Source: Chitinophaga sancti (GTDB lineage Bacteria > Bacteroidota > Bacteroidia > Chitinophagales > Chitinophagaceae). From it: a DNA stretch of 64,000 bases. Below the pieces are notes generated by a model. That model ran no database searches, was not told where the DNA came from, and saw only the letters and a list, made by a program, of their open reading frames with translations. Both the position numbers and the translations under genes were made by a program. The stretch is from the NCBI RefSeq assembly GCF_034087045.1, contig NZ_CP139247.1, positions 5,358,001-5,422,000 on the forward strand, read 5' to 3'. Of this stretch, positions 6,986 to 50,263 are shown piece after piece. Positions within the stretch are counted from its first letter, which is position 1; the number at the start of each line of letters is the position of its first letter.

Positions 6986-9202
6986 TTATGCCTTTTTACG
7001 GGAAGCACCGCCACCCTTCTTTGCAGCGGATGATTTCTTCTTATCAGTGGCAGATCTGTCTCCTTTAGCTGATTTACTTTTGGCAGGACCACCACTCCTT
7101 TCGGAAGGTTGCTTTTTGCCGCGGTGAGGGCGATTAAAATCAGTATCCTGGTCTCTTCTGCCGCGTGGAGCTTCTCCACCACGACCCCGTACCACTCTAC
7201 CCTGCGGAGGAAAACCTGCATCCTCATCTTCTATCAGCTCATAATCCAGCTGTCTCTTTACCAGGTTTGCCGCAGCTACCTGCACCTTCACTTTATCTCC
7301 AATACGAATCTTCCGACCCGTATTCATCCCCACCAGTGAATATTCATTTTCATCATACTTAAAATCATCCTTCGTCATCATGCTCTGCAAACTCACCAGT
7401 CCTTCACACTTGGTATCCACAGTCTCTACCCAGAAACCAAAATGAGCGACCCCACTCACCACACCAGCGAAGGTCTCGCCCAGGAACTGCTGCATGTATT
7501 CCACCTGCTTGTATTTGTTCGCAGCTCTTTCTGCTTCCATCGCCTTGCGCTCCATCTCTGAAGAGTGTTTACACATCGCATCCATCCTTTTATCAGGATG
7601 AATATCATTTGCGAGACACTGCGCTACCACACGATGTACCAATACATCGGGGTAACGACGGATGGGAGATGTAAAGTGACAGTAGTGATCAAAACCCAAT
7701 CCATAGTGGCCGATATCTTCCGTCTGGTAAACGGCTTTGGCCATGGTACGGATACCGAGGGTTTCGAGTACATGCTGTTCTGGCTTGCCCTTCGCCATCT
7801 GCAACATCGCATTGAAGCTATTCGCCAGTGCTTCAGGATTAGAAAGATCCAGCTTGTGACCGAACTTGCTTGCGAAACCAGAGAACACTTTCAGCTTCTC
7901 TTCATCCGGCGTATCGTGGGTACGATATGGGAATGGCACCTGTTGGTTATTGCCGATGCGGATATTGTATACATACTCTGCTACCTTTCTATTGGCAAGC
8001 AGCATAAATTCTTCGATCAACTGGTGGGCTTCCTTGCTCTCCTTGATCATGATGCCGATCGGCTTTGCATGTTCATCCAGCTGGAAGCGAACTTCCTGCG
8101 AAGAGAAGTTGATAGCGCCATGTTGAATACGTGTTTTGCGCATAGTCTGTGCGATGGTATTCAACAACAGCAATTCGTCTTTGTAAGGTCCGTCTCCCTT
8201 TTCGATGATCTCCTGTACCTCTTCGTAGGTAAAGCGATGATCGGAATGGATCACGGTTCTGCCTATCCATTGCTCCCTGATCTCGCCTTGCTCATTGATC
8301 TTAAACACGGCAGAGAAGGTCAGTTTATCTTCGTGCGGACGCAGGGAACAGAGCTCGTTCGAGATCTTTTCCGGCAGCATAGGCAGTACACGATCCGGCA
8401 GGTATACAGAAGTAGCACGTTTGTCTGCTTCCTTATCCAGCGCGGTATCCGGCAGTACATAATGACTCACGTCTGCAATGTGCACACCGATTTCGTACCA
8501 GCCACCACGGGTCTTTTTGATAGAGAGGGCATCGTCAAAGTCCTTGGCATCCACAGGGTCGATGGTAAAGGTGAGGGTCTTGCGAAAGTCCTTACGTTTG
8601 TTTACTTCAGCACTGCCGATGTCTTCTTTGACAGCCTGTAGTTCCTCCATCACATCCGCCGGGAAGCTAAGCGGGAAGCCCGCTTCGATAAGGATCTCCT
8701 TCATAGCCAGGTCGTTGGCATCGCTGGCATCCAGTAGTTCTACAATCTCGCCAACGGGTTTGCGGGTCTTTTCGCCCCACTGTACAATCCTCACTACGGC
8801 CTTATCGCCGCTCTTCATGTCTTTTACCTCGTTCGCTGGAATATATATATCCGGCATGAAGATACCTTTGTCAGGTATAAGGAATGCGAATCCCTTATTC
8901 ACCTGCAGGGTGCCGGTAAACTCTGTCTTTTTACGTTTAGTAATCGCCGTTATCACCCCTTCCATTCGTCCCTGGTTCTTAGCTGGTTTGATAACATCAA
9001 CGGTTACTTCATCTCCGTCTAAAGCGGTATTCAGGTTTTTCTGCCTTACAAGTACATCTTTTTCCTGCCCCTCGACGATGACGAAGGCCATGCCGGAACG
9101 GGTGATTTCTATTGTTCCCTTGTAGGTTTTCTTTTGGCTGCTACTGCCTTTTTCTCTGCTGTGAGCGCCTTTTTCTTTTTGAGGTTTTTTCTTTTTAGTC
9201 AT
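6986..9202 (-). CDS. rnr: Ribonuclease R
   Basis: The 738-residue protein has a basic N-terminus, OB-fold cold-shock domains (about 25-155), the RNB catalytic domain (about 205-560) with the metal-binding acidic cluster D215, D218, D221, D223 and D224, and an S1 domain (about 590-665). It degrades structured RNA 3' to 5'. The last 70 residues are very rich in Lys, Arg, Gly and Ser, a common RNase R tail that helps grip RNA or ribosomes. It starts 11 nt after lpxK in what looks like one operon. Confidence 0.95.
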   Translation of the reverse strand: MTKKKKPQKEKGAHSREKGSSSQKKTYKGTIEITRSGMAFVIVEGQEKDVLVRQKNLNTALDGDEVTVDVIKPAKNQGRMEGVITAITKRKKTEFTGTLQVNKGFAFLIPDKGIFMPDIYIPANEVKDMKSGDKAVVRIVQWGEKTRKPVGEIVELLDASDANDLAMKEILIEAGFPLSFPADVMEELQAVKEDIGSAEVNKRKDFRKTLTFTIDPVDAKDFDDALSIKKTRGGWYEIGVHIADVSHYVLPDTALDKEADKRATSVYLPDRVLPMLPEKISNELCSLRPHEDKLTFSAVFKINEQGEIREQWIGRTVIHSDHRFTYEEVQEIIEKGDGPYKDELLLLNTIAQTMRKTRIQHGAINFSSQEVRFQLDEHAKPIGIMIKESKEAHQLIEEFMLLANRKVAEYVYNIRIGNNQQVPFPYRTHDTPDEEKLKVFSGFASKFGHKLDLSNPEALANSFNAMLQMAKGKPEQHVLETLGIRTMAKAVYQTEDIGHYGLGFDHYCHFTSPIRRYPDVLVHRVVAQCLANDIHPDKRMDAMCKHSSEMERKAMEAERAANKYKQVEYMQQFLGETFAGVVSGVAHFGFWVETVDTKCEGLVSLQSMMTKDDFKYDENEYSLVGMNTGRKIRIGDKVKVQVAAANLVKRQLDYELIEDEDAGFPPQGRVVRGRGGEAPRGRRDQDTDFNRPHRGKKQPSERSGGPAKSKSAKGDRSATDKKKSSAAKKGGGASRKKA

Positions 9203-9213
9203 TCTCGTAACAT

Positions 9214-10281
9214 TTAATCATGGTTACTTCCAAACCGTTCCACGTAATCAAAAATATAATTATTAAATGAATCTCCTTCCCCAAACAGGAAAGATATTTC
9301 CACCGGCATAACGGCGATGGTTATGTTTCGCTCCCGGAGTTGCGGGGCCAGGAGCTGTAGCCTTACGGCATCTTTTTCTGTGGTGATCACCATTTTATTC
9401 TCCCCGGGCAGGTTCCCGAGTTCACGTTGTATCTTATCAAGGTCGTGCACCCCATAGTAATAATGATCGGGAAAAGGCAGCAGGAAGACCTCCCGGTGGC
9501 TGCTTTTCAAGTGCTGCAGGAGTGGTTCAGGACGGGCGATACCTGCTACCAGCAACAGCGTTGTATCGGCCGGTATGGTAGTGGGTGCACCGCTGAACAG
9601 GTCGTACAGCTGACCATATTGCAAGGTGGTAAAATATACATGTTGCCCAGGCAATGGATTGATTTCCTGCCAGATAGCGTTTTTTTCAGTTTCAGAAAGG
9701 TGGGGCGGACATTTGGATACGATGATACAATTGGCCCTTTCGTATCCTTTGCGTCCTTCCCGGAGGCGGCCAAAGGGTACCACATGATCTTTGGTAAACC
9801 GGCGGCTGTAGTCGGTGATCATGATGTTCATACCTGGTTTTACAGAGCGGTGCTGGAAGGCATCGTCCAGGAGGATCACCTGAGTTTCAGGGCGCTCTCC
9901 GAGCAGTTGGGGAATGGCGAGCATTCTCTCTTCGCCCACGCAAACGCTGATGTCCGGGTACTTTTGGTGAAACTGCATAGGTTCATCACCCAGCTGTGAG
10001 GCGGTGCTGTTTTCATCTGCCAGCAGGTAGCCCCTGGTACGGCGGTTGTAACCTCGGCTCAGGGTGGCGGTGTGTACGCGGTCTTTGAGCAGGCGGATGA
10101 GATGTTCGACATGGGGAGTCTTGCCGGTGCCTCCTACAGAAAGGTTGCCCACTGCTATCACGGGCAGGTCGAATTCCACAGCATTGAGTACTTTATTGTC
10201 GTACATCCTGTTGCGGGTCCACATTACCAAACCGTACAAAAGTGAGAAAGGATATAATAAGATCTTAAGATATTGAAGCAT
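9214..10281 (-). CDS. lpxK: Tetraacyldisaccharide 4'-kinase (lipid A pathway)
   Basis: The 355-residue protein has a hydrophobic N-terminal helix (about 5-21) that anchors it to the inner membrane, followed by a Walker A motif within GNLSVGGTGKTP (45-56). 'RGYNRRTRGYLLA' and 'LLDDAFQHR' are LpxK family motifs. It phosphorylates the 4' position of the lipid A disaccharide precursor. The start at 10281 leaves only 3 nt to the upstream cyclo-ligase gene, so the two are likely co-transcribed and perhaps translationally coupled. Confidence 0.95.
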   Translation of the reverse strand: MLQYLKILLYPFSLLYGLVMWTRNRMYDNKVLNAVEFDLPVIAVGNLSVGGTGKTPHVEHLIRLLKDRVHTATLSRGYNRRTRGYLLADENSTASQLGDEPMQFHQKYPDISVCVGEERMLAIPQLLGERPETQVILLDDAFQHRSVKPGMNIMITDYSRRFTKDHVVPFGRLREGRKGYERANCIIVSKCPPHLSETEKNAIWQEINPLPGQHVYFTTLQYGQLYDLFSGAPTTIPADTTLLLVAGIARPEPLLQHLKSSHREVFLLPFPDHYYYGVHDLDKIQRELGNLPGENKMVITTEKDAVRLQLLAPQLRERNITIAVMPVEISFLFGEGDSFNNYIFDYVERFGSNHD

Positions 10282-10284
10282 GCA

Positions 10285-10866
10285 TCAGCTTTTTGTGAAA
10301 TGATAAGTCGTATTGGGTGTGACCACGATATGCAGTGGAACATCCCAGGCGCCGATGTCGGCGATGCCGGTTACCGGGTCGAACAATGACAGTCCGATGG
10401 TGGTAACGTCCGGGCGGCATTGTTCCAGGAAGCGGTCGTACATCCCTTTTCCATAACCTACGCGGTGGCCGGCGGTATCGAATGCCAGCAGTGGTACAAA
10501 TACCATGTCCAGCTCAGATGGCGCAATGAGCGTACCTGACGTGGGTTCGGGAATGCCGTAGTTGTTCTTTTCCAGTACGGTGTTTTGATCCCAAAGGTAA
10601 TGCAACATGGTGCTATCAGCCATATTGGAACGGGAAATTACCCATTGGAGGTCCGGAAAATGGATCCGGGTATAGTCTACAAGGGCAAGTGTATCCACTT
10701 CCTTTTTTTCCCTGATAGGTAGAAAAATGTGTGCCAGCTTGTAAGGGCTGAAATCCAGTAGCCTGCATTGTGCGAGCAACTGCCCATTGAGCGTGGTAAT
10801 CTGGTCGGAGGGAGTATTCATTCTTTTTTCAAGAAACTCCCGGCGTATATCCTTTTTTGTTAACAA
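10285..10866 (-). CDS. 5-formyltetrahydrofolate cyclo-ligase
   Basis: The 193-residue protein begins with 'TKKDIRREFLEKR', and carries the family's C-terminal signature 'GHRVGYGKGMYDRFLEQ'. It uses ATP to turn 5-formyl-THF into 5,10-methenyl-THF and returns stored folate to the one-carbon pool. The length is normal for the family. It lies 14 nt after bioD and 3 nt before lpxK. Confidence 0.92.
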   Translation of the reverse strand: MLTKKDIRREFLEKRMNTPSDQITTLNGQLLAQCRLLDFSPYKLAHIFLPIREKKEVDTLALVDYTRIHFPDLQWVISRSNMADSTMLHYLWDQNTVLEKNNYGIPEPTSGTLIAPSELDMVFVPLLAFDTAGHRVGYGKGMYDRFLEQCRPDVTTIGLSLFDPVTGIADIGAWDVPLHIVVTPNTTYHFTKS

Positions 10867-10880
10867 TATGATACGCTGAG

Positions 10881-11513
10881 TTATTTTAACTGTAAAGATA
10901 GCTTTTCTGCCTGTTCCTTTACAAAAGCCTTGTCAATATGGCTGGTTTGAGGAATTCTGCCCAGTTTGGGGAACCCGGACCAGGAGACAACTTCGTCTTC
11001 ATTAGTATGTGTTTCGCCGCTGAAGATCCAGCCCAGAACGGGGATCTGAGCCTGCTGGAGGACTTTTGCGGTGAGCAAAGAATGGTTGATGGAGCCGAGG
11101 TAGTTGCCTGCTACAATAATGACTTTGGCTTTGAGTTGTTGGATCAGGTCGATGGTAAAGGTGGTTTCGGTGATAGGTACCATGAGGCCGCCGGCGCCTT
11201 CGATAATGAGGGGGCGGTTGGCCGGTTGGTAAGTCTCAGCTATTTCTATTATTCTTTTTACATTAATGGTTACGTTTTCGAGCCTTGCAGCAAGGTGCGG
11301 GGAGGCTGGTTCCTGGAGGCGATAGGCCTCTTTATGGCATCTTGAAACTGGATTTGTGAGTAGATTTTTTATGGTATCAGTATCGGTACCTTCTGTCAGA
11401 CCGGTTTGGACAGGTTTCCAGTAATCGGCCTGGAGAGACTCGGTGATGCAGGCGGAGGTGATGGTTTTGCCTACGCCCGTGCCAATGCCGGTGATGAAGA
11501 TGCGGTTTGTCAT
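10881..11513 (-). CDS. bioD: ATP-dependent dethiobiotin synthetase
   Basis: The 210-residue protein starts at MTNRIFITGIGTGVGKT, where the P-loop sits right at the N-terminus as in BioD. A longer frame to 11576 is rejected because it would put residues before this conserved start. 'EGAGGLMVPI' is the second family motif. BioD closes the ureido ring of biotin from DAPA, CO2 and ATP. No other bio gene is present in the window. The minus-strand -7 element at 11521-11528 lies right at the start codon, which would give a very short or absent leader. Confidence 0.93.
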   Translation of the reverse strand: MTNRIFITGIGTGVGKTITSACITESLQADYWKPVQTGLTEGTDTDTIKNLLTNPVSRCHKEAYRLQEPASPHLAARLENVTINVKRIIEIAETYQPANRPLIIEGAGGLMVPITETTFTIDLIQQLKAKVIIVAGNYLGSINHSLLTAKVLQQAQIPVLGWIFSGETHTNEDEVVSWSGFPKLGRIPQTSHIDKAFVKEQAEKLSLQLK

Positions 11514-47048: not shown

Positions 47049-48455
47049 ATGAAACCCATCTACCCTATTCTGTGCCTGCTGGCACTCAGCGCCTGTTCCC
47101 GGAAGGATATGCTTCCTACTATCAACAATTCAAATCCTGACACTATAATTCCGAAATCTGCTATCAATGATTTTATTGAACAACGGCTTAAAGAGGAGGA
47201 TCATTTCGACTGGACCATGGCCAATGATAGTATGTTGTGGAGTGCATTGATCCAGTCAGATAGTGTATTAAGCATAGGCTATAATACCGGCGATAAGGAG
47301 AAAGTATTAAAAGTGGTACGGGAACATGAAGGCGCGCTTATTTATCCATTCAAAGAAGGGAAATTGCCATTTCTTAATCTGAAAGTAGGTAATTATGCTA
47401 CCATCAAAGCACTGCGTGGATTTGTTCGTTATGCAGATCCTATTGGCTATGGCGCTTATAGTCAGGCTAATGCAAGGCCAGCCAGTAGCCTATTAAATTT
47501 CGGCTGCGGGAGTAATACAGCCCAAACAAATATTGATTATACTTCGATACTCCCCGCAGCTAAACAATCCTGGAATTACACCTATCACCACATTCCTGAG
47601 GCATGGTCACAATCTACCGGGGCGAATATCAAGGTTATGATCATTGATACAGGTATCAGTGATGCGCAGGAAAACTTAGGCTCCACATTCAACCAGGGAT
47701 ACTCTTCGGGAAGAAGCATTACCCGTGCGGTGACTTATTCCGGAGCGACCACCAATGACGATTGCGGGCATGGAACCAGTATGGCGGGTGTACTGGCAGG
47801 GCCACGCGGCACAGATGGCAATACGGCAGGTATTGCCTACAATTGTAATCTGCTCATGGTACATGCGGCTGAAAATGTGGTGATCCTCTCTTCAAATTCC
47901 GTGAATGGTGTAACTGATGCTTATGTACTAGGTGCAGATGATCCGGATGTAAAGATCATCAGTATGAGTTTGGGTACTATTTTTAGCTATGGCCAGATCA
48001 AAGATGCGATTGCCTATGCTGATAGCAAACAAAAATTGATGTTCTGTGCAGCAGGTACTTCTTTTTCATTCTTTGCAAGTTTTGTGGGCGTGATCTTCCC
48101 GGCTAATCAGCCACAGGTACATGCAGTAACGGGGGTAAAAGATAACCTGACCACACGTTGTGATGACTGTCATGTAGGGAGCAAAGTAGATTTTACAATA
48201 GTGATGGAAAAAGCCAGTAACGGTTTGCATCCATTGAGTATTGCGATGAGCGGCGATGTACCTTCCACAGTAGGCGGGTCATCAGTAGCGACGGCCAGCT
48301 GTTCGGCCATCGCAGCATTGATATGGAGTAAAAACCCGGGGTATCCAAGGGATAGCATTATCAGCAAGATGCGGAGAGCAGGCTCCTACCCTGTGACCCG
48401 CAATAGTTCTTTTGGCTGGGGTGTGGTAAATGTGGCTACGGCCTTATCGCTTTAG
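47049..48455 (+). CDS. Lipoprotein S8 (subtilisin-like) protease with an altered oxyanion hole
   Basis: The 468-residue protein has lipobox LSAC (Cys16), a pro-region of about 150 residues and an S8 domain with Asp200 (IIDTGIS), His241 (GHGTSMAG) and Ser412 (GGSSVATA). The usual AAGN motif that supplies the oxyanion Asn reads AAGT (Thr337). Cys residues around 371-374 (CDDC) may form a disulfide or bind metal. It is divergent from the COG0523 gene, with 94 bp between. The last codons overlap the convergent LytTR gene by 12 bp. Confidence 0.88.
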
Positions 48456-49256
48456 GAAACGGTTATGTAAAATGCGTTGTAGTGTTTCTTCCTTCTGATA
48501 TTTTGAAACAGTGATCTGAAAAGCACCTACATACAGCGTATTGCCTTCAATACTATTGATCTTGCCGATGGCCACCAGGTAAGACTTGTGTGGTTGTACA
48601 AAGGATGTTGCGGGCAGGTGCTCCTGCAACATCTTTAATGTAAGGTGCGTAATGATCTTTCTGTCAGGTACGTGAATAGCAACATAATTCTCCATGGCTT
48701 CGACAAAGAGAATGTCATTCACGCTGATCTTTTCCAGCTTGCTATCTACTTTTACAAACAAGTAATCGCTTGTGGATGGTTGGGTTTGGAAATGATCATA
48801 GATCTTATTGGCGGTTTTGAGAAAGCGTTCAAAAGAAATAGGTTTTAGTAAATAATCCAGTACTTCCAGTTCATACCCGTGCACAGCGTATTTTTCGTAT
48901 GCAGTTGTGAATACAACCTTTGGCGGACGAGTTAGGTTTTTTAATAATTCAATACCTGTCATATAAGGCATCTCAATATCCAGGAATAAAACATCTACCT
49001 GTTGTTGTTTTAGCAACGAGTTCAATTCTATGGCATTTTCACACTCGCCTTTCAGATCAAGAAAATCTATCTTCTCAATATACACACTCAATGATAGCTT
49101 TTCAGAGGCACGTAATTTTTGCAGGCTGATAAAACTCTCCAGGTAATTCAATTCCTGTCTGACAGGTACCGTTAGTTGCTGGTCATACAATTGATATCTT
49201 ATTAATGAAAGATAAGCACGCCAAAGATAGCGAGGATCCGGAGCCAGTCTAACCAT
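48444..49256 (-). CDS. LytTR-family response regulator with a rearranged N-terminus (probable pseudogene)
   Basis: The 270-codon frame is a chimera. Residues 1-17 are an out-of-frame reading of an acyltransferase fragment. Residues about 18-58 ('LIRYQLYD...YLESFISLQKLRASEKLSLSV') match the middle of LytS-type sensor kinases. From about residue 59 it is a response regulator that lacks its first 15-20 residues, including the acidic DD pair, but keeps Asp93 (LFLDIEMP), Thr117-118 and Lys138. The LytTR DNA-binding domain (about 165-265) looks whole. It might still make a DNA-binding protein that cannot be phosphorylated, or be dead. Confidence 0.75.
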   Translation of the reverse strand: MVRLAPDPRYLWRAYLSLIRYQLYDQQLTVPVRQELNYLESFISLQKLRASEKLSLSVYIEKIDFLDLKGECENAIELNSLLKQQQVDVLFLDIEMPYMTGIELLKNLTRPPKVVFTTAYEKYAVHGYELEVLDYLLKPISFERFLKTANKIYDHFQTQPSTSDYLFVKVDSKLEKISVNDILFVEAMENYVAIHVPDRKIITHLTLKMLQEHLPATSFVQPHKSYLVAIGKINSIEGNTLYVGAFQITVSKYQKEETLQRILHNRFLKR

Positions 49257-49279
49257 GCCTGACGGGGAGTTAATTGCAT
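49202..49279 (-). pseudogene. N-terminal fragment of an acyltransferase-3 family gene
   Basis: The minus strand from ATG 49279 reads 25 codons (MQLTPRQAW...LIFH, then TAA). 'WLDWLRILAIFGVLIFH' is the usual first helix of acyltransferase family 3 membrane proteins. The frame stops where the LytS-like sequence begins, so the rest of the gene was lost. It overlaps the 5' end of the LytTR frame in another reading frame. Confidence 0.6.
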
Positions 49280-49394
49280 AAGTTTGAGTTTATACAGGCA
49301 AATTAGCGTTGGAGGCAGGGAGGGGGAAATTAGTTTGACGTAAGGGCGGATTTTGGGGGTGTAAGGAGGATATAGAAAGAAAGACCTTTTAAAA

Positions 49395-50117
49395 CTATGG
49401 CAATTTTGCCACCAACTTTTCAGGCATCCATCTCAATACCTGATATATAAGTTTCCATTTTATGCCCGGTACAATCGTAAACCCATTACCGGCATTTACA
49501 ATTTCACGCGCAATAAACGGAGGTTCCATCAATAAAGACGCCGGGAGGTCAAGTCCGGCCGTCATCTTACTGCGTATATAACCTGCTACTATTACATTGA
49601 CCACTATCTTTCTGGCAAACAAATATTGTCTCATCCCTGCCAGGTATTGCGTAAATGCCGCTTTTGTACTACCGTAAATAAAGTTACTTTTTCGTCCCCG
49701 CACACCAGATAATGAAGATAACCCGATGATCCGTTCCAGATGATCATTTCCCTTGTCATTTACAATGATATTAATGATGGATACAGCGCCGGCATAGTGT
49801 ACCTGCATCATCCGATAACTTCCTTCCCAATCTGTCAGGGCCTGTTCATTCACGACCTGAAAACCGGCTGCATATACAACGATATGGGGTTTTGCAGGTA
49901 ATGCAGCGTAGAAAGCCGCATGTGTTTCAAAAGCAATGGCATCAAAATAACAGATGGTCAGGCGGCTATTGGAAACATGCTTTGCTTCCATAAACGATTT
50001 TATCGCTGCAGTACTACGGGATGCTGCTATCACCTGATATCCTTTTACGAGATATAATAAAGTAGCTTCTTTCGCCACATCAGAATTGGCGCCGAGGATC
50101 AATACAGTTTTGGACAT
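49395..50117 (-). CDS. Short-chain dehydrogenase/reductase
   Basis: The 240-residue protein starts at MSKTVLILGANSDVA; a start three codons earlier is possible. It has a GxxxxxA nucleotide-binding loop (GANSDVA, 9-15), 'VVYAAGF' in place of NNAG, and the active-site YGSTK. 'GLSSLSGVRGRKSNFIYGSTKAAFTQYLAG' surrounds the catalytic Ser, Tyr and Lys. The cofactor and substrate are unknown. The C-terminal segment 'GIKWKLIYQVLRWMPEKLVAKLP' resembles DprE2/decaprenyl-phosphoryl epimerase-type SDRs, which is a weak hint. Confidence 0.85.
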   Translation of the reverse strand: MSKTVLILGANSDVAKEATLLYLVKGYQVIAASRSTAAIKSFMEAKHVSNSRLTICYFDAIAFETHAAFYAALPAKPHIVVYAAGFQVVNEQALTDWEGSYRMMQVHYAGAVSIINIIVNDKGNDHLERIIGLSSLSGVRGRKSNFIYGSTKAAFTQYLAGMRQYLFARKIVVNVIVAGYIRSKMTAGLDLPASLLMEPPFIAREIVNAGNGFTIVPGIKWKLIYQVLRWMPEKLVAKLP

Positions 50118-50263
50118 AAAAAGCAATCTAAGGAAAAACTAAATCATTTTAGCAACCCCATCGGCTAAAATCCTGCTATTCTTTGTTAATTCCCGCAAAT
50201 ACCCTCTCCATTTTTCATAATACTTTTCCATCCAGCATCATCCAACTGTAGTTATGAAAACAA

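Follow-up and report, generated by a model that had tools for sequence, protein, structure and literature searches.

On its minus strand, between a short-chain dehydrogenase (SDR) gene and a convergent S8 protease gene, the window (a 64,000-nucleotide stretch of the Chitinophaga sancti contig NZ_CP139247.1) carries parts of three genes joined head to tail: the beginning of an acyltransferase-3 gene, a mid-gene piece of a LytS-type sensor kinase gene and a LytTR response-regulator gene that lacks its start (Table 1). The junctions were placed by residue and base alignments against the related species C. silvisoli, which put them at 49208–49205 and 49083–49080, in agreement with the positions near 49205 and 49080 proposed in a first-pass annotation of the sequence.

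The acyltransferase piece, whose 25 codons that annotation had recognized, reads from the ATG at 49279 for 25 residues, 24 of them identical in C. silvisoli, and then meets TAATAA just past junction 1. The kinase piece, which is identical to residues 201–241 of C. silvisoli LytS at 37 of 41 positions, lies in a different frame from the acyltransferase piece, as had been annotated, and junction 2 joins it in frame to the LytTR piece (88% protein identity). The LytTR piece contains no stop and no frameshift, and the codons deleted from it include the native start and the DD pair. Loss of the acidic pair had been called correctly in the first-pass annotation; the truncation, given there as 15–20 residues, amounts to 20–21 codons. 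An open reading frame of 270 aa (48444–49256, minus strand) is present across the region, and its ATG is an out-of-frame codon inside the acyltransferase piece. At junction 1, C. silvisoli shows the four bases TCAT at its lytS side; at the acyltransferase side they are seen in the window only, the C. silvisoli sequence there differing from them by two bases; the identity of four bases on both sides of this junction would thus be a property of the window lineage's own ancestor.

Table 1 Features of the remnant and of the two genes that flank it (window coordinates)
Feature	Position	Strand	Remark
S8 (subtilase) gene, convergent, 12-base overlap with the LytTR 3' end	47049..48455	+	same overlap in C. 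silvisoli
270-codon mechanical open frame through all three remnants	48444..49256	-	
Remnant 3: LytTR response-regulator gene lacking the first 20-21 codons	48444..49082	-	
Junction 2: LytS codon ~241 to LytTR codon ~21	49080..49083	-	~0.35 kb deletion
Remnant 2: ~41 mid-gene codons of a LytS-type kinase (second half of His_kinase)	49083..49204	-	
Junction 1: acyltransferase codon 25 to LytS codon ~200	49205..49208	-	~1.70 kb deletion
Remnant 1: first 25 acyltransferase-3 codons with native start	49205..49279	-	24/25 residues as in C. silvisoli
SDR gene just upstream of the remnant	49395..50126	-	

Domain content of the remnant

The pieces were compared with domain and family profiles. The LytS-derived segment of the 270-residue translation matched Pfam His_kinase at residues 17–54 with an E value of 2.2e-5 and 25.1 bits, just under the cut-off of 25.2 bits; in isolation the piece scored 28.1 bits (E 2.4e-6). 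Together with the similarity to C. silvisoli LytS, this bears out the earlier assignment of residues 18–58 to a LytS kinase. The match covers profile positions 43–81 of 81 only, so that the whole domain is missing, as is the C-terminal part of LytS, and about 41 of 338 LytS residues are left. In the regulator part, Pfam Response_reg matched residues 60–148 beginning at profile position 18: the N-terminal strand of the receiver and its acidic pair are absent, and the DD of relatives sits in the deleted codons. The aspartate of the LFLDIEMP motif (D93 of P0001), presumably the phospho-acceptor as in other LytTR-family response regulators, is retained and occupies a column that is invariant in 21 sequences. 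The LytTR domain (PF04397) was matched at residues 173–257 over profile positions 2–92 of 98 (E 5.5e-18, 65.4 bits).

The isolated 25-residue acyltransferase piece matched positions 2–19 of the 326-position Acyl_transf_3 profile at E 0.0012 and 18.5 bits against a curated cut-off of 31, and it stops after these 25 residues. Because this Pfam score is weak by itself, the acyltransferase origin of the piece rests on the operon comparison described below. With the C. silvisoli acyltransferase as query, the scrap in the window was matched at E 3.3e-10; the intact C. silvisoli protein is assigned to Acyl_transf_3 at E 1.6e-31 and scored 125.6 bits against the NCBIfam MdoC model, below the cut-off of 338. 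No NCBIfam family exceeded its cut-off for the four proteins searched, among the matches listed (the best 25 for two of them). The best NCBIfam matches of the window frame were the BtsR/LytR-type regulators PRK11697 (117.4 bits, residues 56–237) and PRK14084 (76.4 bits, residues 57–252), far under the respective equivalog cut-offs of 246 and 375; the intact C. silvisoli regulator also falls far short of them (134.8 and 90.7 bits). Unlike these regulators, the window copy lacks the first 20–21 residues. A homologue sharing the full N-terminus of the chimeric frame was sought and none was found among the matches listed (the best 80 of 138 in one search).

The intact operon in related genomes

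The intact acyltransferase, LytS and LytTR genes that the first-pass annotation had predicted for related genomes are present in C. silvisoli (locus L039) as an operon in which they overlap head to tail, with the acyltransferase at 8220–9407, LytS at 9404–10420 and LytTR at 10417–11115. Downstream of both this operon and the window remnant follow convergent S8 protease, CobW GTPase, sigma factor and anti-sigma factor genes. The window thus shares gene order and downstream neighbours with C. silvisoli and has none of the three operon genes whole. Nucleotide alignment of the window with L039 gave three collinear pieces separated by jumps of ~1.70 kb and ~0.35 kb; what is absent relative to C. 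silvisoli runs from acyltransferase codon 26 through LytS codon 200 and from LytS codon 242 through LytTR codon 20. A chance origin of the three-piece match, a separate explanation that was considered, is ruled out by this syntenic DNA alignment.

Twenty genus loci were fetched, hand-picked among LytTR matches and including G052 and G053, the nearest relatives of the window genome; apart from these two, the three genes stood in order at 18 of 18 loci, C. silvisoli (G048) among them. The wider set of loci L038–L059 (22 of 80) contained the LytS-LytTR pair in 21 cases, the exception being L038, the ATCC 35208 locus. The acyltransferase was also present at 11 of these 21 loci; the ten lacking it are Flavitalea, Puia or metagenome bins by title, in some cases on short contigs. 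Across 79 genus genomes, an acyltransferase match (E ≤ 1e-40) was found in 55 and a LytS match (E ≤ 1e-80) in 56, thresholds that count paralogues as well and do not cover gene order. The operon is therefore not universal, the acyltransferase match being missing in 24 and the LytS match in 23 of the 79 genomes. The window genome, G052 and G053 have neither match at these thresholds.

Relocation of the acyltransferase to another site was considered; at E ≤ 1e-5, no second copy was detected in the window genome, G052 or G053, and the sole match was the window scrap itself (a 29-residue piece). For LytS, these three genomes contain distant paralogues only, the best-scoring having 36% identity in the window genome and 40% in G052 and G053. 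In G052 and G053, the paralogue 40% identical to the lost kinase is found at L139 (G052 C314) and L140 (G053 C1:4215923–4216864), beside a LytTR gene (47%; G052 C314 63790–64425, G053 C1 4215196–4215831) to which the window genome has no equally good match. A literature search combining Chitinophaga and LytTR returned nothing in the material available to us.

A fused remnant of an operon, probably lost recently

Chimeric pseudogenes born by deletion are a general kind in bacteria. The window resembles them in its junctions between neighbouring genes, the short identities at these junctions, the loss of native starts and the existence of intact syntenic copies elsewhere; unlike such pseudogenes generally, its last reading frame stays open to the native stop. 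Relatives thus hold intact copies at the same place and the window a disabled one, and we consider the region very probably a recent pseudogene, the leftovers of the acyltransferase–LytS–LytTR operon. As the first-pass annotation had also supposed, two deletions, of ~1.70 and ~0.35 kb, would have fused three neighbouring genes, and the operon intact in C. silvisoli and other relatives agrees with that account. The short junction identities would be compatible with end-joining or with slippage between short direct repeats; no repeat of at least 10 bases with copies at both ends of a deletion was found.

The region upstream of the acyltransferase may still drive transcription, and translation from the native acyltransferase start would end after 25 codons. 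The LytTR part, having neither its own start nor coupling to an upstream frame, would most likely remain unmade or be made by chance internal initiation only. Any product would miss the first strand and helix of the receiver together with its acidic pair, and should not be switchable by phosphorylation.

The same annotation had taken the surviving 270-codon frame to mean that a DNA-binding protein could still be produced, a suggestion that found no support. The LytTR gene's own start is gone, and the in-frame starts upstream are the out-of-frame ATG of the acyltransferase piece or TTG and GTG codons within the LytS scrap. Neither LytS nor LytTR retains its native start in the window; in C. silvisoli these starts overlap the upstream genes. 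The two nearest relatives carry reduced or dead versions, as described below. When 20,000 double deletions were simulated at random in the C. silvisoli operon, within bounds chosen by us, 28% kept an ATG-led frame to the LytTR stop that began within the acyltransferase piece or a short way upstream; frames shared with the native start were counted as well. Because more than a quarter of such deletions keep a frame, its survival speaks neither for selection nor for a product. The LytTR part, a former gene, is open for that reason, and the LytS scrap had a one in three chance of being in frame with it. Overall, the case that the 270-codon frame makes for a product is weak. A promoter scan covering a limited range of promoter types found six promoter-like sites against 3.1 (s.d. 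1.8) expected, and a terminator scan one terminator-like site against 0.8 expected; neither count supports a further claim.

Selection on the LytTR piece

Over the 211 codons of the LytTR piece, the window and G052 differ by 30 synonymous and 8 nonsynonymous changes (dN/dS, omega, 0.067). The ratios of intact neighbours in the same comparison were 0.046 for the S8 gene, 0.070 for the CobW GTPase, 0.105 for anti-sigma and 0.194 for sigma. The data reject full neutrality of the piece since the split of the two genomes (p 3e-13) and put an upper bound of 10–14% (one-sided 95%, for an assumed constrained ratio of 0.022–0.045) on the neutral part of its divergence; the same bound is 11–13% for the intact CobW control, nearly that of LytTR, and 5–7% for S8. 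The acyltransferase and LytS scraps, compared with C. silvisoli, likewise show 32.3 synonymous vs 7.7 nonsynonymous changes, rounded to 32 and 8 for the neutrality estimate. Because scraps of no evident use also changed mainly synonymously, the operon appears to have stayed intact for most of the period after the split and to have been lost recently and separately in each lineage. The losses in the window and sister lineages were probably recent and independent, and the low LytTR ratio may reflect such a recent loss or, equally well, a truncated protein that is still used.

A codon model with a separate window branch gave a degenerate estimate (omega 8.5, branch length 0.004, 2dL 0.05 vs omega 1), as it did for the intact sigma gene; outgroups near synonymous saturation (dS > 1 for LytTR) are the probable cause. 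Individual replacements were examined against 90 distinct relatives. At position 211 the window LytTR has T in place of the P found in 89 of 90 relatives, and its codon 33 encodes E in a column that is mostly V (62/90) and whose eight commonest residues, together accounting for 89 of 90, do not include E. The other two clear window-specific replacements, L128 and G193, occur in relatives too, leaving two of four at odds with the relatives. P211T and the codon 33 replacement could hint at decay of the LytTR piece. At columns conserved to at least 98%, the window departs once and 13 of the 90 relatives once or twice; at 90%-conserved columns, there are five departures in the window and four each in G052, C. 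silvisoli and G045.

These data bear on whether the remnant is still a working gene, in which internal initiation would yield a truncated, phosphorylation-blind LytTR DNA-binding protein acting constitutively on the old targets. We think this quite improbable. A LytTR domain match of 65.4 bits that spans almost the full profile, a frame open to the native stop, the low dN/dS against G052 and the lack of excess departures from conserved columns are all what a working gene would show. Against it stand the missing native start, with an out-of-frame acyltransferase codon as the sole upstream in-frame ATG, the dead or further truncated versions in the two nearest genomes, and P211T at an almost invariant proline; the low ratio, shared by the scraps without evident use, is accounted for by constraint that preceded the deletions.

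A different deletion in the sister lineage

G052 ([Flexibacter] sp. ATCC 35208; L038, NZ_MTKN01000056.1) and G053 are 92–95% identical to the window across long aligned pieces of the region. Both carry a different deletion in the same operon, of ~2.24 kb by arithmetic on C. silvisoli coordinates, in which the LytS scrap is gone and the acyltransferase is reduced to its first seven or eight bases, fused to LytTR codon 22. The LytTR frame of G052 runs for 200 aa from an internal ATG, and the G053 regulator carries a stop and a one-base insertion, its listed frame having 92 codons. Since the shared deletion, the LytTR genes of G052 and G053 have accumulated no synonymous and three nonsynonymous changes in addition to the stop and the one-base insertion, small numbers that look like decay; the count leaves out the stop codon as well as 12 codons around the insertion.

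That the window genome was misassembled or missequenced here, for which nothing specific speaks, can be given next to no weight: the genome is one 8.32-Mb contig with 99.93% completeness, two other assemblies lost the same genes with a different junction, and the ends of the deletions are not paired by any reported repeat of at least 10 bases.

The LytTR-side breakpoints of the two lineages lie ~2–5 bases apart (window ~49080, L009 ~2135, L014 ~2136). No repeat or motif was found that accounts for this near-coincidence, which was spotted post hoc and may be due to chance. In an alternative order of events, the ancestor of the three genomes would first have suffered the 0.35-kb deletion, which produced a functional in-frame fusion of the N-terminal part of the kinase to the DNA-binding regulator, later destroyed by the second deletion here and by the 2.24-kb deletion in the sister lineage. 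The in-frame junction 2, the nearby sister breakpoint and the constraint on the LytTR piece through most of the interval after the split are consistent with such a fusion. In-frame joining is nevertheless a one in three chance, the fusion would lack the receiver DD pair and the kinase C-terminal part, none like it occurs at any locus examined, and this order of events leaves the coincidence of the sister breakpoint itself unexplained. We regard it as unlikely. Still more speculative, and in our view highly unlikely, is that loss of the kinase and of the receiver's switch by deletion made the regulated LytTR factor a short protein that binds DNA constitutively, possibly through an intermediate LytS-LytTR fusion anchored in the membrane, with the sister lineages cutting at nearly the same codon in parallel.

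If the preferred reading of separate, recent losses is right, the locus would offer a clean case of operon loss caught part-way, with the sister lineage having lost the same genes by another deletion. The paired losses help to date and order gene decay and caution against giving the 270-aa frame a regulator annotation. Were a product made, it would provide a natural test of a LytTR protein without its phosphorylation switch.

Possible changes in the neighbouring genes

DNA similarity to C. silvisoli ends at ~49367, upstream of the remnant. The SDR gene beyond this point was matched only at L118, L119 and L038 (G052, G053 and ATCC 35208) of 42 loci searched, many others of which hold the upstream side only in part. 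Sequence comparison suggests that 49367–50126 may represent a rearrangement or insertion beside the decayed operon. On the other side of the operon, the interval between the sigma and S8 genes, which houses a CobW-type GTPase gene in C. silvisoli and the window, contains in G045 (L120 3865–4378) two weak, overlapping pieces of it only (residues 261–397, 47–48% identity). The CobW-type GTPase seems to have been lost or replaced in G045, and gene loss in the same neighbourhood may have occurred in other lineages too.
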